Positions 47,610-64,000 of a stretch of DNA of 64,000 nt are shown piece after piece. The stretch lies in the NCBI RefSeq assembly GCF_900079725.1, contig NZ_LT599032.1, positions 4,522,054-4,586,053 on the forward strand, given 5' to 3'. The stretch is from an uncultured Dysgonomonas sp. (GTDB lineage: Bacteria > Bacteroidota > Bacteroidia > Bacteroidales > Dysgonomonadaceae). Numbering within the stretch: the stretch's first letter is position 1; each line of letters begins with the position of its first letter. The notes beneath the pieces are model-generated. The model made no database searches. It was given only the letters and a program-made list of their open reading frames with translations, and was not told the origin of the DNA. Made by a program: the position numbers and the translations under genes.

Positions 47610-47616
47610 TTAGCTT

Positions 47617-48061: not shown

Positions 48062-48093
48062 CGACCTTTGGTATAATCTTCTACCAAAGGTCG
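48062..48093. terminator. Bidirectional rho-independent terminator
   Basis: CGACCTTTGGTA and TACCAAAGGTCG form a 12-base perfect stem with an eight-base loop between convergent genes; TTTATCA follows on the plus strand and TTTATTAG on the minus strand. It separates the aromatic block from the glycan locus. Confidence 0.85.
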
Positions 48094-48105: not shown

Positions 48106-48930
48106 TTAGTATAAGACAGAAGCCCCTAATATACTGATATCCTCCTTTTTTGATATTCTGATTTCTAATTTCTTTACAGTTTCAGGATAAGGAAACGTAT
48201 TTAATGTTTCTATCATTGCAGGAGCAAAAAAATTGTAAGCATTGGATATGCTGCCACCCATTATTATGACAGATGGATCATACGCAAAAAGGATCACTTT
48301 CATCAGGTTACCGATGTGGTGTCCGGCTTCTTTCCATATCATTAAGGCTTCGTTATCTCCTTCAGATGCTTTATCGAAAGCTTCTTTTCCGGTAATTCCG
48401 TGCTCTCTCACAAAATAGGAACTGCTGCAATAGGACTCATAATCATATTCCAGATAAGGCAGGCACCCGATTTCTCCGGCACCGGTATTATCTCCGTTAT
48501 ATAATTTACCATCGATAATTATTCCCGCGCCTACTCCTGTGCCTAAAGCAACTGCGACAATGTTGTTGAAACCATTACCTTCTCCGTAATAATGTTCGCC
48601 GAGAGCAAAACAGTTGCAATCGTTATTTACAGAAACCGGGATTTTGAATTCTTCTTCCAGGATATCTTTCAGGTGTACTTCTTTCCACGAAGGTATATTC
48701 GCCACATTGTAGACGATACCTCTTTCGGCATCGACTACCGATGGAACACCTATACCTATGCTTTCTATATCCTGATTTATTAATTGGTGTATCATTCCTT
48801 TTAGTTGACCGATAACAGCCTCTTCCGGTTCGTTAGCCTTGCATGGTTCGGCTACCCTGCCGATTATTTTACCATTCGATACAATGCTCATCCGGACATT
48901 TGTACCACCTAAATCTATACCTATTTTCAT
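48106..48930 (-). CDS. ROK-family sugar kinase
   Basis: The 274-residue protein has the ROK/actin-type ATP loop GIDLGGTNVRMSI at the N-terminus, NDCNCFALGEHYYG, and the VALGTGVGAGIIIDGKL loop, with GEIGCLPYLEYDYESYCSSS in place of the classic zinc-binding CxCGxxGCxE motif (several cysteines but another spacing). Likely roles are glucokinase or an amino-sugar kinase. Its start overlaps the preceding glycosidase gene by four bases, so it belongs to the glycan locus and would phosphorylate the released sugar. No N-terminal DNA-binding domain, so it is an enzyme rather than a repressor. Confidence 0.88.
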   Translation of the reverse strand: MKIGIDLGGTNVRMSIVSNGKIIGRVAEPCKANEPEEAVIGQLKGMIHQLINQDIESIGIGVPSVVDAERGIVYNVANIPSWKEVHLKDILEEEFKIPVSVNNDCNCFALGEHYYGEGNGFNNIVAVALGTGVGAGIIIDGKLYNGDNTGAGEIGCLPYLEYDYESYCSSSYFVREHGITGKEAFDKASEGDNEALMIWKEAGHHIGNLMKVILFAYDPSVIIMGGSISNAYNFFAPAMIETLNTFPYPETVKKLEIRISKKEDISILGASVLY

Positions 48931-50546
48931 ACAGTCTGATTCCCTTCTTTTATGCTCACTTTCTTACTCTTATCTTTCCCCCAGTATAATGTCAGTTCGA
49001 AAGGAACGTTCGTTTCTATTATTACTGATGGCGTATCTTCCTGCGAATTGCGTTTGTTTACTTTCAGAGTAACCAGCCCGTCGGGGCCGAAAGGATAGCG
49101 TTCTATTCCGTGTGCTTCTGTCTGGGTAATATCCCATACAAGCGAATGATTGGCATAGTCGGAACGTATGCCCAGAATATATTCGATAAATATGGCAATA
49201 GGGGGTAAACCTGTCCAGCCCACAAAATCTTTGCGGGCCATAAATCCGGGTTCGGTGGCTTCCGGAGCATAATATTCCCAGAATGTGCCGGTGTTTTTAT
49301 ATACTTCGAATACATTGTTATAATGGTTTTTTGCAATTTCCTTAGCCTGTCTGGTATATCCTTTTTTATCAAGTCCGGTAATAACCATATAATTTGTTCC
49401 CGGCCATACACCTCCTTGCCAGTAGCGTCCTTTAGGATTATATTTCGGGTTATCCGCCGAAAGGGACGGTACTCTGTGCGGGCGGTTGAATGTTTTAGTG
49501 TTTCCCAGTTCAGTAACCATTCTATCCAGTTGTGTTTTATCCAGAACATCGGTATGTAAAGCCCAGAATGCACCGATTCCCTTAGTCGTATTCAAACTGC
49601 CGTCTGCGTACTGGTCGTATAAAAAGCCGGTTTTTTCATCCCACAGATTGTCGTGAACGTACTTTGTGAGTGCTTTTATTTCATCTTCAAATTCTTCAAT
49701 TTCCTGCCAGCGTTCGAGATAGAATCCTATTTCGAGCAGGATATTTGCCATCAGTATTTGTTGCAGGCATGCATCCAGCCATACCATATGCCCGTGACTG
49801 TATATCATACTGTATTGTGGCTGTACACGTGGCATGTTGTCCATGCCGGTACCCCAGCCGCTCGACCAATATGTACCATTAGGCCATGTGCGGTTTAGTC
49901 TCAGCCATTTATAGTACGCGCAAAGAGCCGGGAAAATCTTATTGAGTCGTTCATTATCCCCATATTGCCTGTAATATAATATCTCGCTCCACGGAAGCAG
50001 ATTCGGACCTGTACTTACCGGATCGTATCGTTCGAAGCAGTCGGCACCATCTGCTTTTATTTCACGGCAGATAAATCCGTCGGGGTGCTGTTTGGCGTAA
50101 AAATTATCCAATGTGTGTTGGAACGGGAAGAAGCGGTATCCATAGCGGGCAAACATCATCATAAAGGATGAATCCCACATGAAAATGTTTCCGTTATATG
50201 CGGTATCCAGATAACTGGATACAAAACCTGAGCCTTTTTGCGGCTGGCGGATATTACTGATAGCTATCTGCCAGGCTTTCCAGTACATCTCCAATTCTTT
50301 CTCATGACCTGTCCAGATAGGATTGGGTAATATGTTCTTCGCTTCTTCAAAACTTTTAGGAACAATCTCCTCCGGCTTGGCTATACGGTACTCGTTTTCT
50401 GTAACCAGAGCCTCTTTCACATAAGTATTCTTATATGGCAGGTTATACTTCTGCGGGGTTTCATCTGCTTCCTGCGAATAGATGGGGAAAGTCCCGAATA
50501 ACAGGCTTGAAGCAATAATTGAAATACTTAATATCTTTTTTCTCAT
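48927..50546 (-). CDS. Six-hairpin glycoside hydrolase (GH63/GH37/MGH1-like)
   Basis: The 539-residue secreted enzyme has a signal peptide (about 1-25) and an alpha-toroid catalytic domain with FMWDSSFMMMFARYGYRF, PNGTYWSSGWGTGMDNMPR, RYWQGGVWPGTNYMVITGLD and TFWEYYAPEATEPG; these are typical of the (alpha/alpha)6 inverting glucosidases and mannosylglycerate-type hydrolases. Substrate is uncertain; in GH63 members act on glucose-capped mannan oligosaccharides. A C-terminal beta-domain (about 490-539) closes the protein. It starts eight bases after the metallophosphoesterase and overlaps the ROK kinase, tying both to the glycan operon. Confidence 0.8.
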   Translation of the reverse strand: MRKKILSISIIASSLLFGTFPIYSQEADETPQKYNLPYKNTYVKEALVTENEYRIAKPEEIVPKSFEEAKNILPNPIWTGHEKELEMYWKAWQIAISNIRQPQKGSGFVSSYLDTAYNGNIFMWDSSFMMMFARYGYRFFPFQHTLDNFYAKQHPDGFICREIKADGADCFERYDPVSTGPNLLPWSEILYYRQYGDNERLNKIFPALCAYYKWLRLNRTWPNGTYWSSGWGTGMDNMPRVQPQYSMIYSHGHMVWLDACLQQILMANILLEIGFYLERWQEIEEFEDEIKALTKYVHDNLWDEKTGFLYDQYADGSLNTTKGIGAFWALHTDVLDKTQLDRMVTELGNTKTFNRPHRVPSLSADNPKYNPKGRYWQGGVWPGTNYMVITGLDKKGYTRQAKEIAKNHYNNVFEVYKNTGTFWEYYAPEATEPGFMARKDFVGWTGLPPIAIFIEYILGIRSDYANHSLVWDITQTEAHGIERYPFGPDGLVTLKVNKRNSQEDTPSVIIETNVPFELTLYWGKDKSKKVSIKEGNQTV

Positions 50547-50554
50547 ATTCTAAT

Positions 50555-52021
50555 TTATTCAGCAATAAATAATATATTATCGGGGAGTATGTCTTCTCTG
50601 ATATTGCGGCTCGAATACCCGACTTCGAGCATCTCACCCATATAATCTTCGAAATAAAGTACAGTCAGTTCATGGAATCCTTTATCAAGAGCGACTTTCC
50701 CATCTGCCCGCCTCATGCTGTGAGAGCCGTCATTGTCAACGACTAATTGACCATCTATAAACAGCTTTGATCCATCATCGGAATAGGTATAGAAGCGGTA
50801 GACACTTTTTTCCGGTATTTTGATCCATGTTTTGAAAACAAATGCCATCGAATCCTTTGCTGTTGCCGGATCAATAGATATGTTTTTCAATATTCCATTC
50901 CTGACAGGCTTTTCCAGTGCTATCTCGCCCGTATTTTTGAATCGTTTTCCTTCATAATAAGAGTACGATACTCCCTGTTGTTTTACGTTAATGCTCTTAG
51001 CGGCGAGGTAAGTCATAGATTCTTCATCAACAGAAGATAAACCCGACGGGTAATAATATTTAAATTCTGTCCCCTCCTTGGTTCTTATCCATGTATCAAA
51101 CTGGGACTTTCCTTCATACATGAGGATAATACGTGAGCCCCGTTCTAATTTTCCGTATGCATCTACTCCCGAAGTCCGGCCGAATGCCAGGGCAATTCCC
51201 TGATCAATCCCGATATAATCGTTATCGTGGTCATGTCCAACAAATATTCCCATCACATCTTTTTTCTCTATCATGGAGCAGAACATCCCGGAATTGATTT
51301 CGGGTGATGCTATCCCTTCCTCTTTGTATCCGATTGTATTTTCATTGCCGACAATATTGTTGAATTCAAGAATTGGAATATGGAAGAAAGCTAATGCAGG
51401 TAGCGGAGTATTATTATTGCGGACGGTAAATTTATCACTGGTGTTACGGTACCATTCTATCTGATCGAAATGTATCCAGTCATAATGCCCGTATTTATGT
51501 GCCGGTGGTTTATTATTTGTATCGATACAATATAGCAGAGCTGCCGTTCTTACTCCTTTAGAACTGTTTACAGGTAATGCATAATTTCCACTACCTGTTA
51601 TTTGCGGTCCTTTTTCACCTATAAAATAAGGTAGATTTTCTATGATATCGAAGATTTCATTGCGGGAGACACCTGTCTCGGCATCATGATTTCCTAGGGT
51701 TACAGCCCACGGGATCTGTGCGTCTTCGAATATTCTGGCTATTGCCAGCCATCCTTCGCGGGCCGGTGCATCGGTAACAACATCGCCTGTAAGTACGGCT
51801 AAATCCGGTTTTTCTGTAGCTAGTACATGTTTGATTACATCGGTGGTTTCAATACAATTAGGTGATTTATTACTCCAGTGAATATCTGTGAATTGGGCAA
51901 TTTTAAATTGTCCGTTATCCCTGAATTGTAGCTGTATATCTTTTTTGGGAATGGCCTTAAGCGTACCAAAACAGGATAGAACAGCTATTATAAAGAACAT
52001 ATATTTCTTCATAGAAAGCAT
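50555..52021 (-). CDS. Secreted metallophosphoesterase with C-terminal PA14 domain
   Basis: The 488-residue protein has a signal peptide (Met1 or Met4 may be the start) and a calcineurin-like phosphoesterase domain with FTDIHW, TGDVVTD, LGNHDAETGV and the GHDHDND metal-binding motifs (residues about 40-330). The C-terminus (about 375-488) is a PA14-type carbohydrate-binding domain: YRFYTYSDDGSKLFIDGQLV, VDNDGSHSMR, LYFEDYMGEMLEVGYSS. The same domain ends the GH92 enzyme of this locus. It presumably removes phosphate or a phosphodiester from the target glycan at the cell surface or in the periplasm. It lies between the phosphatase fusion and the glycosidase in the operon. Confidence 0.88.
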   Translation of the reverse strand: MLSMKKYMFFIIAVLSCFGTLKAIPKKDIQLQFRDNGQFKIAQFTDIHWSNKSPNCIETTDVIKHVLATEKPDLAVLTGDVVTDAPAREGWLAIARIFEDAQIPWAVTLGNHDAETGVSRNEIFDIIENLPYFIGEKGPQITGSGNYALPVNSSKGVRTAALLYCIDTNNKPPAHKYGHYDWIHFDQIEWYRNTSDKFTVRNNNTPLPALAFFHIPILEFNNIVGNENTIGYKEEGIASPEINSGMFCSMIEKKDVMGIFVGHDHDNDYIGIDQGIALAFGRTSGVDAYGKLERGSRIILMYEGKSQFDTWIRTKEGTEFKYYYPSGLSSVDEESMTYLAAKSINVKQQGVSYSYYEGKRFKNTGEIALEKPVRNGILKNISIDPATAKDSMAFVFKTWIKIPEKSVYRFYTYSDDGSKLFIDGQLVVDNDGSHSMRRADGKVALDKGFHELTVLYFEDYMGEMLEVGYSSRNIREDILPDNILFIAE

Positions 52022-52044
52022 TTTATGAATTTATAGTAGCTTTT

Positions 52045-54009
52045 TTACAAGCCTAATAAGGTTTTTATCTTATGGAATATCTGTGTGTTTTTATATACAC
52101 CTCCGAATTTATCAGCACCCGGACCGTACGCATATACCGGCAGCATGATAGGAGTATGGTCGTCAGTCATATATCGGGCGGTTATATGCCCTTTATCGAG
52201 TTCTCCGTCTACGAGGGTCAATCCTCCGGTTTCGTGGTCGCCTGTGATAATAATAAGAGTTTCCCCGTTGCTGTCCGCAAATTTCAGGGCTTCGGCAACA
52301 GCCATATCAAAACTGAATGTTTCTAATATCGAACCCGGCAAAGAATTTGCGTGACCTGCATAATCAATTTTTGCTCCTTCCACCATAAGAAAGAATCCTT
52401 TATCACTTGCTCCTGACAATTTCTTTATCGCTTCTTTTGTTGCCTCGGCAAGCAGAGTTAGAGTTTCTTCGGTCGCGGCTTTTTCCATCCGTTCGTCTAT
52501 ACAGACTACTTTATCATTGGCTGTGTTTATTTCATCAATGGATGTTGTTACACGATATTTACCTTTTAGTTCTTCTGCCATATTCCGTCCGTCTTTTCTT
52601 TTTGTAAATACCTCCATTCCACTACCATTCAGCAGCGTGAGTTTTCCATCCAGCAGCCAGTTTGTAATTTCGTCAGAATTATCACGTTCCACAGAATGTC
52701 CGTAGAAGGCGGCAGGAGTGGCATCGGCAATATTGCCGAGTGTGACCACACCACATGCATATCCTTCAGGGAAAAGAACATCAGTCATGGACGGGTAAGG
52801 GGTACCATCGTCTGCTGCACTGATGTGCCGGTTGCTATTTGACTGGCCTGTGGCAAGTGCACTGCCTGCCGCAGCGGAGTCTGTTGTATATGCATCTTTT
52901 GAACTGGTTTTCTGAAGACCTATATGTTTAAGCAAAAGCATGGAAAGTCCACGGTTTACTGTTTCGGCAGCACATACTTGCGACAGCCCCATGCCATCGC
53001 CAATAAGCAAGATTACATTCTTGATGGGCTTATCAGCCCCGTCGTTCAGATAGGTGGGCTGATAAATATCTATGCCTTTTGTCAGTTGCAGTCTTTTGTT
53101 ATTGAAACCCTGAAATCCAACAGTTGTTTTATCCAATCTTTTGGCACGGGCTACGTCATCGGATACTTCCGCACTATTTCCTGCAATGTGATAATTCTTG
53201 TTGTCGAAATGATAAAAGTAATCGGTACATGCTTCTACCCGGTCAGTATTAATATAATCTACACCTATATTGTGAAATGTATTCCAAGCTGTAACCCCGT
53301 CCGGTGTTCCCCAGAAACGAATAGATTTATTCAGTGCATGAACAGCTTCTATAGCCTTTGTCACCTTGTTATATTCATCTCTGATCATAGTTCCCTTTCC
53401 ATTCCACTGCGAATAATCTTTGAATGGAAGACTTATCATGGCTATGTGTTTCAGTTGCTCGGGAGTATAGTCAAGTCCATTTCCGTCGAAAGATATAAAA
53501 GAAGGATATTTGGTAAAATCAACCGGAGCCGGTCTGTCGCCCGATATGACGACGCGTACGGCATAAGGATTTACAGACGGATCAAATACTTCAGGGTAGG
53601 TCTTCAATTTTTTCACGAGTATATCCAAAGTCGGATTTGCGGGTGTTTTCAGATCGATAAGTAATATGAAAGTCTTATCCGAATTTTCCCATGCCTTCCC
53701 GTTATTTTTCTTATACAGGGCTACTATCGGTTTAATATACGATTCGTCCAGGGTAGGAGCTGTGCCCAGATCCTCTTTATTGTGGGCTACCAGCAATTCA
53801 TCCTTTCTGTTCGTCGCATATACGTCTGCCTCTATAGATGCTACTTGTTGGGCATAAGCCTGATAAAAAGGCACTCGTTGTTCATAATCGTTATGTGAGT
53901 GAATCAGTATTTGCTGTTGAGCAAATGTAATAGACGGACATACGATTAGCAATCCTGCAATTAGAAATAGTTTTAATGCAGAAAAACTTCTGTTCAAAAT
54001 GTAAGTCAT
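52045..54009 (-). CDS. Fusion of PLC-like phosphodiesterase and alkaline phosphatase
   Basis: The 654-residue secreted protein has a signal peptide to about residue 30 and two enzymatic domains. Residues about 31-290 are a PLC-like phosphodiesterase TIM barrel with ILIHSHNDYEQRVPFYQAYA and ASIEADVY, related to the Aim6/GDPD family, and the catalytic histidine. Residues about 325-654 are an alkaline phosphatase: NVILLIGDGMGLSQ, the nucleophile serine in TTDSAAAGSALATGQ and metal ligands in MVEGAKIDYAGHAN and IITGDHETGGLTL. The chain could cut a phosphodiester and then hydrolyse the resulting monoester. It lies in the glycan operon between the EEP gene and the metallophosphoesterase. Confidence 0.9.
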   Translation of the reverse strand: MTYILNRSFSALKLFLIAGLLIVCPSITFAQQQILIHSHNDYEQRVPFYQAYAQQVASIEADVYATNRKDELLVAHNKEDLGTAPTLDESYIKPIVALYKKNNGKAWENSDKTFILLIDLKTPANPTLDILVKKLKTYPEVFDPSVNPYAVRVVISGDRPAPVDFTKYPSFISFDGNGLDYTPEQLKHIAMISLPFKDYSQWNGKGTMIRDEYNKVTKAIEAVHALNKSIRFWGTPDGVTAWNTFHNIGVDYINTDRVEACTDYFYHFDNKNYHIAGNSAEVSDDVARAKRLDKTTVGFQGFNNKRLQLTKGIDIYQPTYLNDGADKPIKNVILLIGDGMGLSQVCAAETVNRGLSMLLLKHIGLQKTSSKDAYTTDSAAAGSALATGQSNSNRHISAADDGTPYPSMTDVLFPEGYACGVVTLGNIADATPAAFYGHSVERDNSDEITNWLLDGKLTLLNGSGMEVFTKRKDGRNMAEELKGKYRVTTSIDEINTANDKVVCIDERMEKAATEETLTLLAEATKEAIKKLSGASDKGFFLMVEGAKIDYAGHANSLPGSILETFSFDMAVAEALKFADSNGETLIIITGDHETGGLTLVDGELDKGHITARYMTDDHTPIMLPVYAYGPGADKFGGVYKNTQIFHKIKTLLGL

Positions 54010-54030
54010 AAAATTTTGATTATAACAGGT

Positions 54031-54888
54031 TTATTCAATTTCTATCTGTGCTGTCACTGCAGAATGGTCGGAAATGAATTTACCATCCAATTCTTCCTGT
54101 ATAACAGTGTGTTTTAATACTTTGGTATCTGGTTTTACGAAAATATAATCTATAAACTCGCGTTTTTCGAGAGGTACTTGTCCGAAACCGTGAAATGTCC
54201 AGTCTGTTCCACTTTTTACAACAGCTATATCTTTGGTATGCATCAGATAGTTTGGATTTGCCGGATCTGTGACATGCTTGATAACATCCGAATCAGGTGT
54301 TGCATTAAAATCTCCGGTCAATATTACAGGCAGGCCTTTGCTTAACTCTCCTATACGTTGTAGAAGTAGAGTCACCCCTTCCTGACGTGCCATTTTACCT
54401 ACGTGGTCAAGATGTGTATTAATAAAGAATATTTGTTTTTTACTACCGATTTCTTCCAATACAATCCAGGTGGCAATGCGTTCACACGCACCATCCCAGC
54501 CTTTAGAACCGATAACTTCAGGTGTTTCACTTAACCAGAAATGCCCGGATTTAATTTCTTTAAATCTATCTTTTTTGTATAGGATGGCACAATATTCACC
54601 TTTTTCAACCCCATCTATGCGGCCAATACCAATAGCATTGTATTCTGGCAGAGAGGTTTTCAGGTCGTTCAATTGATTGACCAATACTTCCTGTGCACCA
54701 ACGATATCGGCATTTTGAGCTTTGATGGTTTGTGCTGCAATATCTTTTCTGTATTGCCAGCTGTTGAGGCTATCGCCCGGATTGTCGTAACGAATATTGA
54801 AACTCATTACATTTAAATCGATTGGTTTACTTTTTGTACAAGATACTAATAGTGATACTACAGCAAATAAATAGAAAAATCTTTTCAT
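54031..54888 (-). CDS. Lipoprotein endonuclease/exonuclease/phosphatase (EEP) family
   Basis: The 285-residue lipoprotein (lipobox LLVSC, Cys17) has the DNase I-like fold: NVMSFNIRYDNPGDSLN, ADIVGAQEVLVNQL (metal-binding glutamate), IFFINTHLDHVG, VILTGDFNATPDSDVI and the C-terminal ISDHSAVTAQI. In polysaccharide loci this fold acts on phosphodiesters of sugars or lipids rather than DNA, for example sphingomyelinase-like or inositol phosphatase-like. It is 14 bases from GH92 and 21 from the phosphatase fusion, so a shared phosphorylated substrate is likely. Confidence 0.9.
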   Translation of the reverse strand: MKRFFYLFAVVSLLVSCTKSKPIDLNVMSFNIRYDNPGDSLNSWQYRKDIAAQTIKAQNADIVGAQEVLVNQLNDLKTSLPEYNAIGIGRIDGVEKGEYCAILYKKDRFKEIKSGHFWLSETPEVIGSKGWDGACERIATWIVLEEIGSKKQIFFINTHLDHVGKMARQEGVTLLLQRIGELSKGLPVILTGDFNATPDSDVIKHVTDPANPNYLMHTKDIAVVKSGTDWTFHGFGQVPLEKREFIDYIFVKPDTKVLKHTVIQEELDGKFISDHSAVTAQIEIE

Positions 54889-54902
54889 GTCAGTAAGGTT
54901 TA

Positions 54903-57830
54903 TTATTTTGTAAATAGATTCGATTCCGGGATCTTTTCAAACTCTGAGGTGTTTGGCTTTTTCCAGCCCCAGCTCAGGTGCTCGCCTTCATAGTCCTCAA
55001 AATATAATAGCTTATATGAATGATAACCTTTTTTCAGGGCAATCCGTCCTGTGGCTATTATGGCAGCATGCGATCCGTCGTTATCGACGATTTTAAGATT
55101 GTCGATGTACAAGACACTGCCATCATCGGACTTGGTCATAAATTCATATATACCATCTTCTGCTACAAAGATAACACCACTAAATATAAAAGCAAAATGA
55201 TCAGCTTGTTTTACTCCGTTAATTGTAGGTTCGGGAAGAATACCTATATCAATTGGTTTAGAGCTCTCTATCTGACTTACCGAGTGATAATATCCTTCAT
55301 AGTAACTGAAATTTGCACCTCTTTCCTTACCCTGTGCCGTAACCGGCTCTCTGAAGACAGCCTTTTTGGCCTCAATTGTAAATGTTTTGCTTGGAATATA
55401 GCCGTCTTTAAATGCTTTGGCTTTTATCTCTGTTGATCCGGATATTTTTATAGGTGCGGAATATACGGAGGATGATTTGTCGGGTTCTTTTCCATCCAAT
55501 GTATAATAAACTTTTGCATCCATAGTTGTAGTGGCCAGGTCTACATCAATGCTATTAACGAATAAGTCCAGATCTTTGGTTGTAAAAGGAATGGAAACTG
55601 TTTTATCTGTTGTCATGGAATATGGATAAGCAGATTCGGCAACTCCTCTGTTCAAATTCGGAACAGAAGAAAGGTTAAAAATCAGATCGCCTCCTTCCAT
55701 CAAATCCTTATAAGTAATATAGTTGGAAAGTATTTCCCTATTGTTTAAAGTAATCTTATCTATATAGAGATTTTTTTCCGGTTGATTAGCTCTGATTGTC
55801 AATGTTTTTCCATTAGCCAGTTTTATACAGGCTTCATCAAACAGCGGTGTTGTCAACGAGAATTCATTTGCTCCCGGACATACAGGATAAATGCCAAGGC
55901 TACTCAGTATATACCATGCCGACATCTGGCCACAATCTTCGTTCCCGCTGATACCCTCCGGCGTTGGCTGATACATTTCGGACAGGATACGACGGGTCAT
56001 AGACTGTGTCTTCCATGGCTGGCTTACATAATTGTATAGATAAGCCATATGATGGCTGGGCTCATTGCCATGGGCATATTGTCCGATAAGACCTGTTATA
56101 TCCGACATGTGTCCATCCACTTTCGATTCGGTGGTAAATAAACTATCCAATTGTGCTACAAAACAGTTTCGGCCGCCAAATAATTGAATGAGTCCGTTTA
56201 CATCATGCGGAACAAAAAAACGATATTGCCATGCTGTGGCTTCTGTATATGCCCTTCCGGGTTCGAACGGATTAAAAGGATAGTCCCAGTTTCCATCCAT
56301 ACGTTTTCCCCGGAAAAATTTTGAATGTCCGTCAAATACATGAATATAAGACAATGCACGTTCGCTGTACTTTTCAAAATCTTCGGTTTTACCGAGTTCT
56401 TTCGCCATTTGGGCTATACACCAGTCGTCGTAGGCATATTCGAGCAAGCAGGATACTGATTCTCTTTTAATATTAGAGGGTATAAACCCGTATTTGATGT
56501 AATAGTCAGAGCCTTTTTTGTTATTATCAGAAGAAATTTTCATGGCTTCATAGGCTTTGTCTACCTCGAAGCCTCTTATCCCTTTCATATATGCATCTGC
56601 AATCACAGACACTGAATGGTAACCGATCATGGTTCCGGTTTCCCCTGCCGATAATGGCCAGATGGGTAATTCTCCCGATATATCATACATTTTCAGATAT
56701 GAATTGATTATATCGTTTACCAGAGTTGTGTCGGTAAGTGTGATGAGAGGATTCCATGCACGGAATGTATCCCAAATGGAGAACGTCGAATAATATTTGC
56801 GCCCTGCCGGTATTGTATCTTTAGTCATATCGTGCCGGCGAAATTGTCCGTTTACATCACTCATAATGTTGGGGACAACTTTCGTATGGTACATCGCGGT
56901 ATAGAAGTTTTTAAGATCGTGTTCATTATCTCCTTTTACCGTAATATCAGAGAGAGCTTTGCCCCAGAGATTACGGGCCTGTTTGTGTACTGAGTCGAAA
57001 TCAAATCCTGTTACATCATGATCCAGATTCAGCCGTGCATTCTCTTCGCTTACAACTGAAAAGGCAACTTTTGCAACAACAGGTTTTCCTGTAGATACTC
57101 CGAATTTCAGTACAGCTTGTTGATTATTACTTTTTGCTGTATCGCCGTATTTCAGAATTTTACCGTCATTGATAAAATCGACAGACTGAAAGTCTTTGGA
57201 AAACTGTGCAACGAAAAATACATACTGATTTGTTACCCATCCTTGTGTACGGCGCATTCCTGTTATCTCATTACTTGCAGTTTGCTTTATAATGAGAGAG
57301 TCTATTGTTTCTTCTGCTAACAGGTGGGACATGTCTATGATAATGGTTTCATTCTTGCCTTCGGCGAATGTATAGCGGTGTACCCCTGTATATGTAGTAG
57401 CTGTCATTTCAGCCTTGATGCCTTCTTGGTCAAAGTCCACGGAATAATATCCGGGAGATGCTTTTTCGTTTGTATGTGAAAAAGCCAATGGTTCGAAAAT
57501 ATAACCTTTTTGAACCTGTATTATATCTCTGGTTGTAGGGTGAAAAAGTACATCACCCAGATCGGCACAACCTGTACCGCTAAGATGTGTATGTGAAAAC
57601 CCGATAATGGTGGAATCACTATAGTGATAACCTGAACATGCGTCCCAGTCTCCGGTTCGGGTATCCGGGCTTAATTGTACCGCTCCATATGGTACGGTGG
57701 CTCCGGGATAGGTATGTCCGTGAAATCCCGTTCCTATAAAAGGGTCAACGTAATCGACCGGACTTTTAAGGATAGGGGAGCAAGCTGCTAATAATCCGAT
57801 AATAGATAGAAAGAATAATTGTTTTTTCAT
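54903..57830 (-). CDS. GH92 alpha-mannosidase with PA14 domain, lipoprotein
   Basis: The 975-residue lipoprotein (lipobox LLAAC, Cys17) is an exo-alpha-mannosidase of GH92. The beta-sandwich N-domain starts at DYVDPFIGTGFHGHTYPGAT; the catalytic (alpha/alpha)6 domain carries the family stretch NEDCGQMSAWYILSSLGIYP and GEEQ-like PSHHMAYLYNY. A CHB_HEX-type beta domain (about 755-825: YYTLDGKEPDKSSSVY, GSTEIKAKAFKDGY) and a C-terminal PA14 domain (about 845-970, KSDDGSVLYIDNLKIVDNDG) follow. GH92 members cut alpha-1,2, -1,3, -1,4 or -1,6 mannosides with calcium, and some hydrolyse mannose-1-phospho-6-mannose. It sits first after susD in the operon. Confidence 0.93.
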   Translation of the reverse strand: MKKQLFFLSIIGLLAACSPILKSPVDYVDPFIGTGFHGHTYPGATVPYGAVQLSPDTRTGDWDACSGYHYSDSTIIGFSHTHLSGTGCADLGDVLFHPTTRDIIQVQKGYIFEPLAFSHTNEKASPGYYSVDFDQEGIKAEMTATTYTGVHRYTFAEGKNETIIIDMSHLLAEETIDSLIIKQTASNEITGMRRTQGWVTNQYVFFVAQFSKDFQSVDFINDGKILKYGDTAKSNNQQAVLKFGVSTGKPVVAKVAFSVVSEENARLNLDHDVTGFDFDSVHKQARNLWGKALSDITVKGDNEHDLKNFYTAMYHTKVVPNIMSDVNGQFRRHDMTKDTIPAGRKYYSTFSIWDTFRAWNPLITLTDTTLVNDIINSYLKMYDISGELPIWPLSAGETGTMIGYHSVSVIADAYMKGIRGFEVDKAYEAMKISSDNNKKGSDYYIKYGFIPSNIKRESVSCLLEYAYDDWCIAQMAKELGKTEDFEKYSERALSYIHVFDGHSKFFRGKRMDGNWDYPFNPFEPGRAYTEATAWQYRFFVPHDVNGLIQLFGGRNCFVAQLDSLFTTESKVDGHMSDITGLIGQYAHGNEPSHHMAYLYNYVSQPWKTQSMTRRILSEMYQPTPEGISGNEDCGQMSAWYILSSLGIYPVCPGANEFSLTTPLFDEACIKLANGKTLTIRANQPEKNLYIDKITLNNREILSNYITYKDLMEGGDLIFNLSSVPNLNRGVAESAYPYSMTTDKTVSIPFTTKDLDLFVNSIDVDLATTTMDAKVYYTLDGKEPDKSSSVYSAPIKISGSTEIKAKAFKDGYIPSKTFTIEAKKAVFREPVTAQGKERGANFSYYEGYYHSVSQIESSKPIDIGILPEPTINGVKQADHFAFIFSGVIFVAEDGIYEFMTKSDDGSVLYIDNLKIVDNDGSHAAIIATGRIALKKGYHSYKLLYFEDYEGEHLSWGWKKPNTSEFEKIPESNLFTK

Positions 57831-57863
57831 ATAGGATATTGCATTAACTGCAAATTTTAATAA

Positions 57864-57893
57864 TAATGGGCATTAAACAAGTAATGCCCATTA
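57864..57893 (-). terminator. Perfect 12-base hairpin between susD and the GH92 gene (attenuator candidate)
   Basis: TAATGGGCATTA and TAATGCCCATTA form a perfect stem with a six-base loop and a weak T-run behind on the minus strand. Such hairpins after susCD pairs are common and could lower expression or stability of the downstream enzyme genes relative to susCD. Confidence 0.7.
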
Positions 57894-57930
57894 CCTCGTA
57901 GTTGATTACTTTAGTGTCAGTGCCTTGTAT

Positions 57931-59538
57931 TTAATCCATCGGATTTTGTTTTAACTTCCCGTTGGCTTTTACCACTTCGTCCGGATTGTATGGGAATACA
58001 ATATCGGTAGAGGGATTGAATGTTCTAGCACTCCATACTTCTATGACTGTATACGGGGAGTCGGGTTTGCTTCTGTCGGCATGTTTTCGTCCTTGTTTTG
58101 GCGCATTTAGTTTGTCCCATTCTTTCCAACGTTTCAGGTCCATAAAGCGGTCTGTAAATTCTCCCGCCAGTTCGCAACGGCGCTCATGCTTAAGGTCGGT
58201 TAATGTGGCATCTGTATATACGTCTCCCAGACCAGCCCGCCTTGTCAATCTGTTTAATTCTTTAGCTGCATCAGTACCTTTACCTTGCATGATCAAGGCC
58301 TCGGCTTTGAATAATACCATTTCGGCATGTCGTATGATAGGGAGATCCAAATCTGTGGTTGGACGGTCACCGTTAGTGGACACAGTGGATGCTTCACCCG
58401 AACCTTTACTATTTACTGCTCCGTATGAGAAAGGCTCCATATATTTAGCCAGCATAAAGCCACATTCAAGGTCTGCTGTGGAATAGAATTTTCTTTTTTC
58501 GCCGAAAAATGTAAATTCGTCATTGTATTCCAGTATTGTAACACCTCTTCTCTTATCGTTAGGGGCAAATTCTTCATACAGACCAAGTGTAGGTTTGAAA
58601 TAACCCCAGCCGTTGTAGCGTCCCCAAGCTTTATTCTCAAGCACTACACCCGGAAATATAGAGCCTGCATAATTATATCCTGATGAATTTACAGACCAGA
58701 TATATTCGGAAGACCAGTTGTTCGCTATTTTAAATACGTCTTCGTAATTACCTAACAGGGCTCTCTTTCCTTCTGTTTCTATTTTATCAACCAATGGCGG
58801 TATCAAAGCCCATTTCGATTCATCGTATTGTGCCCAGTATGCATATGTCTTAACCATAAGTGCCCAAGCCGCTGCTTTATGTGCACGACCTTTATCGGTG
58901 TCATTATATGTTTCGAAGAAAGGAAGTAGTCCGGCAGCACTTTCCAGGTCTTTGACAATGAGGTCATAGTTTTCCATAACAGTTGCCCGTTGAACAGGAA
59001 TAGAGTAGATAAATTCTTCATAAGTTTTGTAAGAAGTATCCTCATATTTGTCGAACGGTACACCCTGATCGGCACGTCCGTGGCGGTATGCAATGTAGAA
59101 ATGACAGAATGCCCGCATAAAGTATGCCTCACCTAACCTGATCTTTTCAACATCTGTAAGGTTATCTTTTCGTACCAGATTGAATACAACCCAGTTGGCG
59201 CGGGAAAGATACTGTGTGAATGTTTCCCAGTTTTCTCTCAGGGAGGATTCGCGTCCGGTAAAGGTAAAGTTGGCCAGGTTATTCTGGTCGGTACCTCTAT
59301 TTCTTCCGTAAATCATATCGTCGCCACCTCCGGCTTGCTCCCAAAACAGGTTGCGTCCGAACGTTTCTTCGCGGTTTAGTACCCAGTAACATGCATCAAT
59401 CGCATTCGTTGCATCCCTCTCATTTTTGAAAAAGTTACCAACACTTGGTTCTCTTTCAGCTGTGACATCCAGGAAGTCGCTACAAGAGATAAATCCTACC
59501 GATAAGAATAGTATTATTAAAGATTTATAGAATTTCAT
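57931..59538 (-). CDS. SusD/RagB-family outer membrane lipoprotein
   Basis: The 535-residue glycan-binding lid has a lipoprotein signal (lipobox FISC, Cys19), an N-terminal part with SDFLDVTAEREPSVGNFFKN, tetratricopeptide-like helices (about 90-230, IRLGEAYFMRAFCHFYIAYR) and a SusD C-terminal region ending in GRKHADRSKPDSPYTVIEVW and NPSTDIVFPYNPDEV. It works with the SusC barrel, 19 bases upstream, to bind oligosaccharides on the cell surface and deliver them for uptake. Sequence specificity of the binding site cannot be read directly. Confidence 0.95.
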   Translation of the reverse strand: MKFYKSLIILFLSVGFISCSDFLDVTAEREPSVGNFFKNERDATNAIDACYWVLNREETFGRNLFWEQAGGGDDMIYGRNRGTDQNNLANFTFTGRESSLRENWETFTQYLSRANWVVFNLVRKDNLTDVEKIRLGEAYFMRAFCHFYIAYRHGRADQGVPFDKYEDTSYKTYEEFIYSIPVQRATVMENYDLIVKDLESAAGLLPFFETYNDTDKGRAHKAAAWALMVKTYAYWAQYDESKWALIPPLVDKIETEGKRALLGNYEDVFKIANNWSSEYIWSVNSSGYNYAGSIFPGVVLENKAWGRYNGWGYFKPTLGLYEEFAPNDKRRGVTILEYNDEFTFFGEKRKFYSTADLECGFMLAKYMEPFSYGAVNSKGSGEASTVSTNGDRPTTDLDLPIIRHAEMVLFKAEALIMQGKGTDAAKELNRLTRRAGLGDVYTDATLTDLKHERRCELAGEFTDRFMDLKRWKEWDKLNAPKQGRKHADRSKPDSPYTVIEVWSARTFNPSTDIVFPYNPDEVVKANGKLKQNPMD

Positions 59539-59557
59539 ATATTCAAATTTTAGGATA

Positions 59558-62500
59558 TTAATAAGTTAATTTTACACCTACGGAGAATACGCGAGGAACC
59601 GGATATTTACCTCCGTCCAGACCTTTTCCACCTACTTCAGGGTTGGTACCCGAATAGTTGGTAAATGTATGTACATTATCTACACTGGCAGATACAGAAA
59701 GTGAACTTTTTCTTTCATCCAGTCGCGGAGAAATACTGCGGAATATTTTATCGAAATTATAAGATACTGTAATGTTTTTTATCCGCATGTATGATGCATC
59801 CTCGATATAGAAATCCGAGATGTTAGAGAAATTACCGTTGTCGTCAGATGATGTTAACCTTGGAACTTCATTGCTGTTAGGCCATGCTTTTAATATTTCG
59901 GTAGATCTGTTAAAGTTTACCATCGATTCGTTCAGTGTAACATATTTCATGGCATTGAAAGCTTTCAAACCACCTACTCCTTGCAACATAATGCTGGCAC
60001 TAAGGTTTTTCCATGTAAGTCCGGCTGTGAGGGCATATGTGATTTTAGGAGTATAGCTACCGACGTATTCTCTGTCATCATCATTGATAATTCCATCACC
60101 ATTTGTGTCTACAAATTTTATATCTCCGGCTTTAGCTTTAGCTTGCATGCGTTTTCCTTCTTTGTTGACATAGGCTTCAGCTTCTGCATCCGACTGGAAC
60201 AGGCCATCTGTTTTATATACCCAGAATGAGTAAAGAGGGTCGTTCTCCCGTGTACGGAACGGATTCAGGCCGCGGAATTCATCATCTTCTATCCATACCG
60301 GTTTGTTTCCTGTTTGCGGATCTGCCGGGCCTATATCGGATACCCAGTTTTTCAATGTTGCAAAATTGGCATTGATGTAATAATTTACATCGCCTACCTT
60401 GTCATTCCATCCAGCCGAGAATTCCCAGCCTCTGTTTTTTACTTCTCCCTGATTGATATACATTGGTTCAGGTCCGATATATGAAGGCCATCCTGTATCT
60501 TGTCGTTTTATTAGATCTTTAGTTGTTTTATTGAAGAAGTCGACAGACAGGTTTAGCCTGTTTTTTAATAGTTCCATGTCGATACCGAAGTCTAGCTGTT
60601 CCGAAGTTTCCCATGTCAGATATCTGTTGAAGGCTTCTCCGTTGTATACCATAGATGGAACCAGCGGTGTGTTGGAGCCTACTTGTCCGCCCACATCATT
60701 AGAACTTTCAACTACAAATGTAGGGTCGCCATAGTGGAATGGTACAGAACCGATATTGCCGATACGTCCCCAACTTGCACGTAATTTTATCAGGTTGAAG
60801 ATGTCCGATTTAGGCATATATGGTTCGGAAGTTAGCTTCCATGCTGCTGTAACAGCAGGGAAATCTCCATGTTTTTTGTCTTTAGGCAAACGTCCGGCGT
60901 TGTCGCGACGTAGAGATGCTGTTGCAAAATAGCGGTCGTTGAAACTATAAGATGCACGTCCTACAATAGAAACGTTGTTGTCTGGTTCGGTATATGCATC
61001 ACCTACAAATACTTTCTGGCTGTCGCCCCAGTTCAAATACAGGAATGCTGTGGTTTCGTTATTGAAGCCTTGTGCACTCACTTTAAAATCTCTGCGTCGT
61101 TGCTGGTTCGCTGTAGTAGAAAGCATTGCCCCGATATTATGTCCGCCTACCGATTTGCTGTAATTCAATGTATTCTCTACTTCCCATCTGTAATAACGAT
61201 AGGTTTCATAATCCAGACGATTGGTCATATTCGGTTTGCCCGGCTCAGGTCTCATCGGATTGAAATTTTTATAGAAATAATTGGTTAGGCGATAAGTCAG
61301 ACGTCCAGTATACTTTAGCCCGGGAACAAAAATATCGTCTATGTCAAGGAAAGTCGATGAGGATATTGTAGTCGGCCTGCTGTATGTATTATTCGATTCT
61401 AAAGTACGCAGAGGGTTGACTACATCTCCGTGAATATCGGCGAAGTTACTTCCATGTTCAGCAATATATGCCGGGTCTTTAGGTGCTGTACCTCCAAAGG
61501 TTCCATCCGAATAGTATGCTTCGGCATTGCGAGGCATCATCAGTGCCGAGAGTATGACACCTGTATATCCGCTATCGGTATTGGTTCCTCTGCTCCTTAG
61601 GTTTTCCCAATAGAAATCTTCTCTTATCTTGATTTTGTTACTGATTTTGAAGAACGCATTATAACGCATTGTAATATTCTTGTTGTATGTATTCAACAAG
61701 ACTCCCTGATCATCGTTATATTGCAGTGATAACCTGTTTGCGAAATCCTCAGTACCGCCGCTTATAACAAAACTGTGCCTTTGGGATAACGAATTTCTGA
61801 ATATTTCATCTATCCAATCGGTACGGGTTTGGGCTATATATGGGTTTTTTACAGGATCCCATCCGTCAGGCAGACTGTTTCCTGTTGCTGCCAGAGCTTG
61901 TTTTCTCACCTCTCTTTGCTGTTCGATAGTCAGAGACTGAGGCAGGTTGGTAGCCTGACTGACACTGTATGTGCCTTCATAGGATATCCTGGGCCTTCCG
62001 GCTACAGCTTGTTTCGTTGTAACGAGGATAACTCCTGCTGAACCAGAATAGGCACCATAAATAGCGGCTGATGCTGCATCCTTCAGCACGACCATCGATT
62101 CTATATCATTGAAGTTTACCGGAGCTCCCGGAACGCCATCTACTACCCATAATGGGGACTCTCCGGACCGGGATCCTTTACCACGGATAACAACACTTGA
62201 TGCTTCTGTAGGGTCTCCTCCGTTTTTGGAGACAGTAACACCCGGAATCTGGCCTTGCAACAGATCTTCGGCTTTTGATACCGGACGATTTTTTAACTGA
62301 TCTATATTTTCCAGTGTACCTATAGATGCAGACAGGTCAGCTTTACGTGCCGCCATACCGAAACCTAGTATAACTACTTCATCCAGTATCTTGGCATCCT
62401 CTTTTAATACGATATTGATAGAAGTCTGATTAGTGATCCGGATTGTCTGTGTTACAAATCCGACATATCTTATTTCTATAGTTGCATTTTCCGGTACATT

Positions 62501-62971
62501 GATGCTGAACTTACCCTCCAGGTCTGTTGTAGTCCCGTTTGTGGTTCCCTTAACCAATATACTTACTCCGGGCAATTCCAGACCTGCTTCGTCTTTAATA
62601 AGACCTGTCAGTTTTTTTATATTGCCATCTTGTTGGACTGTATTTGAGAACTGTGATGTTAAGCCTTTATCAGATAACACAATTTGTTTGTTGTCTTTTA
62701 TATGATAAGTAATGTTTGTATTTGAAAAAAGCTTATCTAATGTATTTTCTATAGAAGAATTAGAAACTTGTATATTTACATTATTATTCAACTCAGATAA
62801 TTCATTGTTGTAAAAGAAGCTATATCCTTCGGCTTTCTCTATTTGCTGGATAACCTGTCGGATTTTCTGGTTCTTGACATTTAAAGTGATTTGAGCAGAA
62901 ATTGTTCCGCTGAAAAATAGCATTAAATAAATTAAGGTAATGCGAAGTGCAAATTTTTTGAATCTTTTCAT
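59558..62971 (-). CDS. SusC/RagA TonB-linked outer membrane transporter with STN domain
   Basis: I place the start at 62971 (MKRFKKFALRITLIYLMLFF), giving 1137 residues with a proper signal peptide; the longer frame to 63016 adds only 15 unlikely residues. After the signal comes a secretin/TonB N-terminal domain (STN, about 30-90: LNVKNQKIRQVIQQIEKAEG), which links the transporter to the FecR anti-sigma factor, then a carboxypeptidase-like domain (about 115-200), the plug (KAEDLLQGQIPGVTVSKNGG, GSAGVILVTTK) and a barrel ending in FSVGVKLTY. It imports the oligosaccharide captured by SusD and signals substrate through FecR to an ECF sigma factor. Confidence 0.96.
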   Translation of the reverse strand: MKRFKKFALRITLIYLMLFFSGTISAQITLNVKNQKIRQVIQQIEKAEGYSFFYNNELSELNNNVNIQVSNSSIENTLDKLFSNTNITYHIKDNKQIVLSDKGLTSQFSNTVQQDGNIKKLTGLIKDEAGLELPGVSILVKGTTNGTTTDLEGKFSINVPENATIEIRYVGFVTQTIRITNQTSINIVLKEDAKILDEVVILGFGMAARKADLSASIGTLENIDQLKNRPVSKAEDLLQGQIPGVTVSKNGGDPTEASSVVIRGKGSRSGESPLWVVDGVPGAPVNFNDIESMVVLKDAASAAIYGAYSGSAGVILVTTKQAVAGRPRISYEGTYSVSQATNLPQSLTIEQQREVRKQALAATGNSLPDGWDPVKNPYIAQTRTDWIDEIFRNSLSQRHSFVISGGTEDFANRLSLQYNDDQGVLLNTYNKNITMRYNAFFKISNKIKIREDFYWENLRSRGTNTDSGYTGVILSALMMPRNAEAYYSDGTFGGTAPKDPAYIAEHGSNFADIHGDVVNPLRTLESNNTYSRPTTISSSTFLDIDDIFVPGLKYTGRLTYRLTNYFYKNFNPMRPEPGKPNMTNRLDYETYRYYRWEVENTLNYSKSVGGHNIGAMLSTTANQQRRRDFKVSAQGFNNETTAFLYLNWGDSQKVFVGDAYTEPDNNVSIVGRASYSFNDRYFATASLRRDNAGRLPKDKKHGDFPAVTAAWKLTSEPYMPKSDIFNLIKLRASWGRIGNIGSVPFHYGDPTFVVESSNDVGGQVGSNTPLVPSMVYNGEAFNRYLTWETSEQLDFGIDMELLKNRLNLSVDFFNKTTKDLIKRQDTGWPSYIGPEPMYINQGEVKNRGWEFSAGWNDKVGDVNYYINANFATLKNWVSDIGPADPQTGNKPVWIEDDEFRGLNPFRTRENDPLYSFWVYKTDGLFQSDAEAEAYVNKEGKRMQAKAKAGDIKFVDTNGDGIINDDDREYVGSYTPKITYALTAGLTWKNLSASIMLQGVGGLKAFNAMKYVTLNESMVNFNRSTEILKAWPNSNEVPRLTSSDDNGNFSNISDFYIEDASYMRIKNITVSYNFDKIFRSISPRLDERKSSLSVSASVDNVHTFTNYSGTNPEVGGKGLDGGKYPVPRVFSVGVKLTY

Positions 62972-63153
62972 GTGTTTTTGTGTTTGAAATCTGCATAATG
63001 TATAAACTTCAGGCATTCAAATCTGACCACAATATACCTTCCTGATTTCTATTCCTGATATCAGATTTAAGGTGTAAGGGTTGTGTTTTGAATGTGTTTG
63101 TCCGGATTTATTCCGAACGTTTCTTTCTAGGTTTTTTTCATAATCAATTAAAT

Positions 63154-64000
63154 TTAAAGTTTCTCGACTTTTTTACTCTCACTTATTTCGACTGTATTGT
63201 TGTATATCTTGTATTGTATCGGAGCAGTCAGGCTTATAATTTCAAAAACATTTCCCAGGCTGTTATTCTTTATTACTCCGGAGAATCTGTAATGTTTCGC
63301 TGATTCTGACGTAAATACAATATCAATGTTATATATGCGGGATAATATTGTACCGATTTCTTCCAGCGATTCACCATAGAATGCCAATTCATTGTTTCTC
63401 CAGATAGCTACATTTGCAACATCGTAAGTGTCTGTCATAGTGAATGCCTCGTTTTCCTTATTATAAGTAAGGCGTTCGTTAGGGTTGAGAAGCATATCCT
63501 TTTTGTTGTCACTTACCTTCAGTTTACCCTCCACTAAGGTTACAATAACCGTTTTATCTGTTTGGTACGACTTTATATTAAAACTTGTACCCAATGCTTC
63601 TACATCTATATTGTTGGCTGTAACGATGAATCTTTTTTCTTTATCTTTAGCTACTTCGAAATATGCTTCGCCTTCTAAAATGATTCTCCTGTCATTGGTG
63701 TTATATGCATTATCATATTTGATTCTGGAATCAGAGTTCAACCAAACTGATGTACCATCAGGTAATAACAGATTTGCTTTTTGTCCTTTATCTACGGATA
63801 CTATAAACTCTTTCATAGAGTATAGGCTCATGCGGGCTATATAGTACGAGCCTAGTCCAGCAATTACTAATAAACAAGCTATAGCAGCATAGCGTTTTAA
63901 GAGAAGCCATTTATTTCTCTTGTGCGGTTTGGTGGATGAAGGCCGAAGTTGAGATTCATAGATCTTCGTTTGTATTTCTTCAAACATTCTTATCTGAATA
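63154..64000 (-). CDS. FecR-family anti-sigma factor, N-terminus beyond right edge
   Basis: The frame is open to the window end: the codons before Met at 63987 (ATT CAG ATA AGA) have no stop, and family members have about 60 more N-terminal residues (the cytosolic sigma-binding part), so the ATG at 63987 is probably internal. The visible part has one transmembrane helix (AAIACLLVIAGLGSYYIARM) and the periplasmic FecR domain: VDKGQKANLLLPDGTSVWLN, RIILEGEAYFEVAKD, IDVEALGTSFNIKSY, VTLVEGKLKV, then the STN-like C-terminal part NVFEIISLTAPIQYKIYNNT. It holds an ECF sigma factor (probably just beyond the window) and releases it when SusC binds substrate. Confidence 0.93.
   Translation of the reverse strand, partial: IQIRMFEEIQTKIYESQLRPSSTKPHKRNKWLLLKRYAAIACLLVIAGLGSYYIARMSLYSMKEFIVSVDKGQKANLLLPDGTSVWLNSDSRIKYDNAYNTNDRRIILEGEAYFEVAKDKEKRFIVTANNIDVEALGTSFNIKSYQTDKTVIVTLVEGKLKVSDNKKDMLLNPNERLTYNKENEAFTMTDTYDVANVAIWRNNELAFYGESLEEIGTILSRIYNIDIVFTSESAKHYRFSGVIKNNSLGNVFEIISLTAPIQYKIYNNTVEISESKKVEKL

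Follow-up and report, generated by a model that had tools for sequence, protein, structure and literature searches.

The stretch of DNA analyzed here (the window, 64,000 nucleotides) covers positions 4522054-4586053 of the genome of an uncultured Dysgonomonas sp. (5.22 Mb, single contig). Near its right-hand end, a minus-strand locus combines a SusC/SusD (SusCD) transporter pair with sugar enzymes and an unusual set of phosphoester hydrolases. The reading order is ECF (extracytoplasmic function) sigma factor, FecR, SusC, SusD, GH92, EEP (endonuclease/exonuclease/phosphatase), a fusion of a glycerophosphodiester phosphodiesterase (GDPD)-like domain with an alkaline phosphatase (ALP), calcineurin-like phosphoesterase, GH63-like glycosidase, and ROK kinase. 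The original prediction, made from the letters of the window, had named SusCD, GH92, a GH63/37-like enzyme, EEP, the fusion, and the calcineurin-like protein, and all of these genes are present, open, and located where it had placed them. Its operon stands as a gene set but begins further upstream, with a sigma factor beyond the window, and ends with a ROK kinase gene that it had left unnamed. The features are listed below; L numbers denote fetched stretches and G numbers genomes.

L013:2302-2916, outside the window, minus-strand reading order: ECF sigma factor, called from translation and position rather than by a family search
63154..64000, minus strand: FecR-type anti-sigma factor, extending beyond the window edge (complete at L013:1208-2224; PF04773 and PF16344 over cut-off)
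59558..63016, minus strand: SusC/RagA TonB-dependent transporter with an N-terminal STN signalling domain (TIGR04056, 773 bits; PF07660, PF07715, PF13715)
57931..59538, minus strand: SusD surface lipoprotein (PF07980, PF14322; lipobox-like FISCSD N terminus, by eye)
54903..57830, minus strand: GH92 alpha-mannosidase with chitobiase-C-terminal-like and PA14 domains, predicted lipoprotein (PF07971, PF17678, PF13290, PF07691)
54031..54888, minus strand: EEP-family phosphatase/phosphodiesterase, predicted lipoprotein (PF03372, 75.3 bits; cut-off 24.5)
52045..54009, minus strand: fusion of a GDPD/phospholipase C (PLC)-like domain and a PhoA-type ALP, predicted periplasmic (PF13653, PF00245)
50555..52021, minus strand: calcineurin-like phosphoesterase with C-terminal PA14 domain (PF00149, 49.6 bits, cut-off 21.5; PF07691)
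48927..50546, minus strand: GH63/GH37-like (alpha/alpha)6 glycosidase (PF22422, 121 bits; PF03200, 47.8; PF01204, 43.6; all over cut-off)
48106..48930, minus strand: ROK-family kinase, final operon gene (PF00480, 156 bits)
48062..48093, minus strand: terminator-like hairpin of 12 pairs directly 3′ of the ROK gene (consensus match only)

The gaps from GH92 through EEP, fusion, calcineurin, and GH63-like genes to ROK are 14, 21, 23, 8, and -4 bases, the last being a 4-base overlap of the ROK and GH63-like genes; GH92 and SusD are 100 bases apart, and SusC and FecR are 137 bases apart. Because each of the six enzyme genes lies within -4 to 23 bases of the next and the same set is found again in other genera, the cluster is not a chance arrangement. 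With susC and susD adjacent, the enzyme genes codirectional, and a regulator present, the locus is organized as a SusCD-type polysaccharide utilization locus (PUL). By eye, EEP and GH92 have lipobox-like N termini, whereas those of the fusion, calcineurin, and GH63-like proteins look like plain signal peptides. Terminator-like hairpins across the region are not above chance (10 found versus 12.3 expected).

The four phosphoester-hydrolase domains that had been predicted, EEP, GDPD/PLC-like, ALP, and calcineurin-like, all score over their Pfam cut-offs and retain conserved catalytic residues. In the fusion, the N-terminal domain (residues ~30-275) matches PF13653 with 28.1 bits (cut-off 27.0), and the C-terminal ALP matches PF00245 with 171.4 bits (cut-off 24.4). 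The predicted fusion is thus real, but its PLC-like label is better replaced by GDPD-like, given the pattern H37 (41/41 aligned relatives), E60 (40/41), D62 (41/41), H76 (39/41), and K121 (41/41), which we take to be the catalytic histidines and metal ligands. In the ALP half, among the rows reaching each position, D338, S378, and R442 are kept in 40/40, D549, H553, D591, and H592 in 38/38, and H618 in 39/39; the exceptions to full conservation are D429 (36/40) and a non-ligand position, A428. Apart from A428, these ALP positions are presumably the nucleophile serine and metal ligands. Nine motif residues of EEP are kept in 18/18 homologues and eight of the calcineurin-like protein in 20/20, and we assume catalytic roles for these as well. 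The fold model of the fusion (pLDDT 82.6) matches TAB5 AP in its ALP half; the GDPD half is left unplaced by fold, since all 50 listed structural matches of the model are alkaline phosphatases. Among the matches listed, the best for the fusion protein is one 96% identical in Dysgonomonas sp. UBA7710 (NZ_DLFW01000023.1). The closest solved structure to EEP is 3g6s (241 bits), a "putative" family protein, and 4c1r, entered in the Protein Data Bank (PDB) as a "mannosyl-6-phosphatase," scores 152 bits. The nearest curated matches of the calcineurin-like protein are weak (LpxG, 28 bits; YaeI, 20 bits), and a candidate role for it as a PGAP5/Ted1-like enzyme that takes off ethanolamine-phosphate was set aside.

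Both GH92 domains score over their curated cut-offs (PF07971, 578.7 bits; PF17678, 260.7 bits). The closest solved relative is BT3130 (6f8z, 611 bits), with BT3965 (6f91, 575 bits) third behind 7zgm. Using linkage specificities from the available text of PMC5930347 and PMC9522356, the window enzyme scores 581 bits to an alpha-1,3-specific enzyme and 575 to an alpha-1,4-specific one, and subsite residues in alignments were not decisive for linkage. The original prediction had pointed to GH92 enzymes that cut mannose-1-phospho-6-mannose. That analogy is not supported for this protein, which is far from CcMan5 (192-193 bits versus 611 for BT3130) and has a different closest solved relative.

The GH63-like enzyme scores 47.8 bits to the GH63 C-terminal domain PF03200 (cut-off 22.4), yet PF22422 scores higher, and the protein is unassigned to an exact CAZy family. 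Through PF22422 its nearest relatives in Pfam are mannosylglycerate-hydrolase-like or glycosyl-glycerate hydrolases (NF047898 is under cut-off), a nearness that would be compatible with action on a sugar-polyol bond. PDB matches are weak, D236 is found in 28/28 homologues, and the fold model (pLDDT 64) resembles several (alpha/alpha)6 families, with rhamnosidases at the top of its matches. The ROK kinase, like 16 of 17 cassette-linked ROKs, does not contain the CxCGxxGCxE zinc motif that is present in L076. A paralogue elsewhere in the source genome (L289:8394-9218; 55% identical) is likewise without it. Twelve genomes have closer ROK orthologues (59 to 100% identity), and every one of these carries the GH63-like gene; related ROKs occur in 56/101 genomes of the family at E 1e-50. 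Given this spread, the in-genome paralogue, and five of the 12 genomes in which ROK lies off the cassette, ROK was dropped as a cassette-specific marker. Among the nine window-locus proteins, no GH76, GH38, GH18, PNGase, GH130, beta-mannosidase, or other endo-mannanase or N-glycan core enzyme was recognized.

Are phosphoesterases a usual accompaniment of GH92? In the source genome, 13 stretches of ~20 kb (two overlapping), covering 15 other GH92 genes, were searched with models built from the locus and its relatives (E 1e-4). No EEP, GDPD, ALP, or phosphatidylinositol-specific phospholipase C (PI-PLC) was found there, although very divergent phosphoesterases might escape such models; there were just two weak matches, to calcineurin (28 bits, L242) and ENPP (31 bits, L244).

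The original prediction had proposed a search for the gene set in other genomes, and the set does recur across Bacteroidales genera. The fusion, counted by a match into both halves, is present in 20 of the 101 family genomes (19 near full length) and the GH63-like protein in 17, of which 16 have an orthologue 72 to 100% identical. Each of the 16 carries an ALP of this family; in 15 it is part of the fusion, and in G098 it stands as a gene of its own. GH63 orthologue and ALP share a contig in 14/16; the other two (G022 and G028) are at contig breaks, and in G040, one of the 16, a stop interrupts the GH63 frame. In a plasmid collection, the fusion had no match, and both records with a GH63-like gene have an ALP beside it.

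Fifty fetched stretches were then scored as loci, of which 46 held an anchor (the fusion, its ALP, or its GDPD part) and four (L211, L212, L234, and L072) were dropped. The presence of ALP or GDPD in the 46 is by construction, since these served as anchors. Near-identical rows were kept (window/L045, L050/L051, and L052/L053/L054), so that rows cannot be counted as independent, and contig ends cut many of the stretches short. GH63 is present in 26/46 anchored loci. GH92 occurs in 22 of the 26 loci with GH63 versus 1 of the 20 without it, and ROK in 16/26 versus 0/20. A further phosphoesterase (EEP, calcineurin, ENPP type, PI-PLC, or canonical GDPD) is found in 21/26 GH63 loci. That phosphoesterases accompany GH92 and GH63 beyond the source genome supports the predicted target of mannose plus phosphorus. 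Four stretches (L046, L225, L227, and L076) hold the fusion and GH63 without GH92, suggesting that the GH63 product is a core part and mannose a decoration. In eight cassettes (L047-L054), the enzymes are 58 to 89% identical to those of the window and SusC/SusD only 29 to 33%. Judged by sequence, the cassettes conserve their enzymes but vary in transporter and regulator.

The most informative result is the exchange of the phosphodiesterase partner of the ALP. In the window a GDPD-like domain is fused to the ALP, whereas in Parabacteroides distasonis separate GDPD-like and ALP genes flank GH63. L208 has a canonical GDPD with the ALP, together with GH92, EEP, GH63, GH125, and GH20, and in G303 (L171:7623-10985) GDPD-like, ALP, calcineurin, and PA14 domains form one 1120-residue protein. 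ENPP-type enzymes are present in L059 and L225. In G654 (L232:4670-14196) ~7.5 kb, including an IS1595-type transposase gene, separates the GDPD gene from the ALP gene. GH20 is present in L172 and L208 by Pfam and in L232 by a model built for this analysis; GH20 would fit the side chains of glycosylphosphatidylinositol (GPI), and the GH125 of L208 would fit the GPI core.

The 101 family genomes contain two PI-PLC-X genes, and both lie in SusCD loci with this ALP. In L056 (Dysgonomonas), PI-PLC-X lies between SusCD and a GH92-fusion-GH63-ROK series and has an acidic lipobox-like N terminus (CKDSDD). In L170, it lies beside ALP, EEP, canonical GDPD, and SusCD. Both proteins keep the PGTHD, DIRL, and YHG motifs. 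An oral Prevotella locus with EEP, ALP, GH63, ROK, and calcineurin-PA14 has a SusD 61% and a SusC 47% identical to those of L170. As a general partner of the cassette, PI-PLC-X fails outside the family (0/21 order-sample contexts) and was dropped.

Several candidates near these genes were rejected. PGAP2IP identity for the EEP relatives in L170 (31.8 bits) and L291 (22.7 bits) was set aside because the general EEP model scores higher. An iolE-like candidate in L060 (a xylose-isomerase-type match) has the NCBIfam name deoxyribonuclease IV, and an iolG-like candidate in L062 (a GFO/IDH match) scores 39.6 against an iolG cut-off of 355. Two 267-residue proteins, 25% identical and without a Pfam match, lie each beside an EEP gene at L170:10314-11117 and L291:11819-12622; among fetched stretches of at least 6 kb, they were found in these two only. 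Two order-sample stretches (L286:2748-10445 and L287:9031-17182) have sigma, FecR, SusC, and SusD-like genes beside a canonical GDPD, without cassette enzymes.

Taken together, SusCD, GH92, the GH63-like enzyme, and the kinase mark the locus as one for a sugar. Four phosphoesterase domains, one GDPD-like and the rest from types with diesterases among them, point to phosphodiesters on this sugar. The substrate is probably small, since no endo-acting mannanase or N-glycan core enzyme was recognized among the nine locus proteins. We consider it probable that the target is a phosphodiester glycoconjugate. Our leading account, held tentatively and at somewhat less than even odds, is a sugar-and-phosphate locus for a small alpha-mannose phosphodiester glycoconjugate, most likely a glycosylated phosphoinositol headgroup (GPI core, phosphatidylinositol [PI]-mannoside, or similar). 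The phosphoinositol identity of the target, taken by itself, is possible but a little less secure. On the present sequence comparisons, a GPI core or PI-mannoside would fit the small substrate, the core/decoration pattern, the sugar-polyol bond, and the PI-PLC links. Of the phosphate-mannose targets originally listed, the phosphoinositol ones (GPI and PI-mannosides) thus gain from PI-PLC-X in two related loci, whereas yeast phosphomannan fits poorly, the window GH92 being distant from CcMan5 and no endo-mannanase being recognized among the nine window-locus proteins. A narrower version, which we regard as rather unlikely, is a dedicated GPI-anchor/PI-mannoside locus in which phosphoesterases strip ethanolamine-phosphate and inositol-phosphate, GH92 removes mannoses, and the GH63-like enzyme performs a new alpha-glucosaminyl- or alpha-mannosyl-inositol cleavage, with related loci in P. 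distasonis and oral Prevotella.

In the proposed pathway, SusCD would bind and import the phosphodiester glycoconjugate, and the GDPD-like and calcineurin/EEP enzymes would cut its phosphodiesters in the periplasm. The ALP, perhaps with EEP, would then remove phosphate; fusion of the ALP to the GDPD-like domain may mean that the monoester need not diffuse away. GH92 would take off terminal alpha-mannose, the GH63-like enzyme would split the leftover alpha-glycosyl-polyol bond, and the ROK kinase would phosphorylate the freed hexose in the cytoplasm. Substrate on SusC would presumably signal through its STN domain to FecR and the ECF sigma factor, inducing the locus. The order originally proposed, diester cut, dephosphorylation, and then mannose removal, seems plausible. 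An actinobacterial lipid is a conceivable target, since Dysgonomonas gadei degrades mycobacterial arabinogalactan according to the available text of PMC10115798, in whose main text the words GH92, phosphatase, and phosphatidylinositol are absent.

Several observations weigh against the phosphoinositol glycoconjugate account. The window locus is itself without a PI-PLC. In the order sample (393 genomes), there were 21 PI-PLC-X matches in 19 genomes, 18 of them over cut-off and the 3 others better called GDPD, and none of the 21 contexts, some short or cut at contig ends, held this ALP, the fusion, or GH92. Both PI-PLC-X contexts in another family are without cassette neighbors (2/2), and G303 has its fusion and PI-PLC-X on separate contigs. 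No inositol-catabolism genes were recognized beside the fusion in L060 and L062, the two stretches examined. The difference in SusC/SusD between the window and L047-L054 means that the ligand may differ, the nearest ROK sits away from the cassette in G006, G011, G014, G022, and G024, and the substrates of the GH63-like enzyme (with its weak fold model) and of ROK are not readable from sequence. In loci L078-L080 (Sphingobacterium and Pedobacter), the fusion accompanies sigma, FecR, and SusC genes plus one in the position of SusD (shown by Pfam to be SusD-like in L078 only), and GH92 and the GH63-like gene are missing, as in the Flavobacterium phosphate locus PUSII. Finally, one enzyme of the related locus PUSI is annotated as a phosphoinositide phospholipase C in the available text of PMC8115612, so that PI-PLC-like enzymes are not glycan specific.

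These last two points lead to the main rival, phosphate scavenging of the kind described for the Flavobacterium phosphate loci (PUS) PUSI and PUSII, in which phosphate would be taken from diverse phosphodiesters (lipid headgroups and nucleotides) and the glycosidases would be accessory. It was missing from the readings originally listed, although the same GDPD-ALP fusion is described in the available text of PMC8115612, and that published precedent is what makes it the main rival. There, PhoA1 of PUSII (Fjoh_3249), which phosphate depletion induces, has the same Pfam pair, PF00245 and PF13653, and occurs alongside PusC2, PusD2, and a FecR-like regulator. PUSI combines SusCD and an ECF sigma factor with a PF00149 and a PF16670 phosphodiesterase, the pair that includes the enzyme annotated as a phosphoinositide phospholipase C. 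L078-L080 also favor this explanation. The window locus has the SusCD, FecR, and PF00245/PF13653 protein of a PUSII-type locus, but it also has GH92 and GH63-like enzymes, and the available text of PMC8115612 sets PUSI and PUSII apart from PULs containing CAZy enzymes. Three sugar genes (GH92, GH63-like, and ROK) are packed tightly with the phosphoesterases in the window operon, and GH92 recurs in 22/26 GH63 loci. We judge phosphate scavenging rather unlikely as the main role, but it is a live rival.

Quite improbable is an alpha-mannan or N-glycan locus whose phosphatases strip mannose-6-phosphate or phosphomannan decorations, as in Bacteroides mannan loci. Homology of EEP to 4c1r speaks for it, as do GH92 and the GH125 of L208, both mannan/N-glycan enzymes, and GH63 alpha-glucosidases process N-glycans. 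EEP is nevertheless closer to 3g6s, GH92 is far from CcMan5, and a single phosphatase would be enough for mannose-6-phosphate, whereas the locus has four phosphoesterase domains, including at least one of GDPD-like type. The nine locus proteins include neither the GH76 endo-alpha-1,6-mannanase of a yeast alpha-mannan locus nor, for an N-glycan core, a recognized PNGase, ENGase, GH18, GH130, or beta-mannosidase. A teichoic or lipoteichoic acid locus, in which GDPD would cut glycerophosphate chains, ALP would free phosphate, and the GH63-like enzyme would remove alpha-hexose from glycerol, suits GDPD plus ALP, the nearness of the GH63-like enzyme to glycosyl-glycerate hydrolases, and the fusion, GH63, and ROK of L227 and L076 without GH92, but it is very improbable given GH92 in most GH63 loci, the rarity of mannose in such polymers, and PI-PLC-X in two loci, which points to inositol phosphate.

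Beside the locus, window positions 46308-48042 encode a PaaK-like phenylacetate-CoA ligase (under its model cut-off) and an ACT-domain protein on the opposite strand, converging on it. Adjoining it outside the window, L013:6157-15999 carries a ROK/NagC-like regulator, a sugar transporter, an epimerase-like gene, and a second SusCD pair (translations read by eye).

Even if the phosphoinositol account is wrong, the cassette unites sugar loci (PUL) and phosphate loci (PUS), which have been described apart so far. Should it be correct, Bacteroidales of the gut and mouth are able to draw on a class of membrane glycans from hosts, fungi, or protists, and the cassette would be a source of enzymes that trim GPI anchors, among them a glycosidase for a sugar linked to inositol. 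Relatives of the cluster occur in bacteria of the human gut and mouth, and the related P. distasonis locus makes the cassette testable. A full-text search, with subscription journals mostly outside it, found no paper in which bacteria feed on GPI or PI-glycan headgroups, and the literature searched (few subscription papers covered) held nothing on point about GPI-/PI-related or phosphomannan loci. Taken whole, the cassette resembles a PUL-PUS hybrid for which no description was found in that literature.

Compared with known systems, the window locus resembles PUSII of Flavobacterium johnsoniae in its SusCD pair, FecR-like regulator, and predicted periplasmic PF00245 plus PF13653 protein, a likeness of domain content with the sequences uncompared. 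It differs by adding GH92, GH63-like, ROK, EEP, and calcineurin-PA14 proteins, while PUSII, in the available text of PMC8115612, is without glycosidases and induced by phosphate depletion. The alpha-mannan loci of Bacteroides thetaiotaomicron contain GH38, GH76, GH92, and GH125 (available text of PMC5930347). The window locus has in common with them GH92 and an EEP homologue of 4c1r, the solved structure from which an EEP mannose-6-phosphatase is already known. SusCD is presumably a further shared element. Unlike those loci, it has no recognized GH76 or GH38, has GH125 in one relative (L208) only, and has four phosphoesterase domains; its GH92 has extra chitobiase-C and PA14 domains compared with BT3130 (6f8z) and BT3965 (6f91). 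The locus of P. distasonis TSDC17.2-1.1 (UNS60_RS03150-RS03125, NZ_OY725749.1) differs in its separate GDPD-like and ALP genes, with no calcineurin, EEP, or ROK recognized in the stretch. That record (L290), listed as a plasmid, carries rpoN, purE, and gcvH and may be a chromosomal contig. The P. distasonis locus shares SusC, SusD, GH92, ALP, and a GH63-like enzyme (70% identical) with the window, and its GDPD/PLC-like enzyme is 32% identical to the N-terminal part of the fusion over 224 alignment columns. The window SusC is closer to that of P. distasonis (52% identical) than to those of L047-L054.

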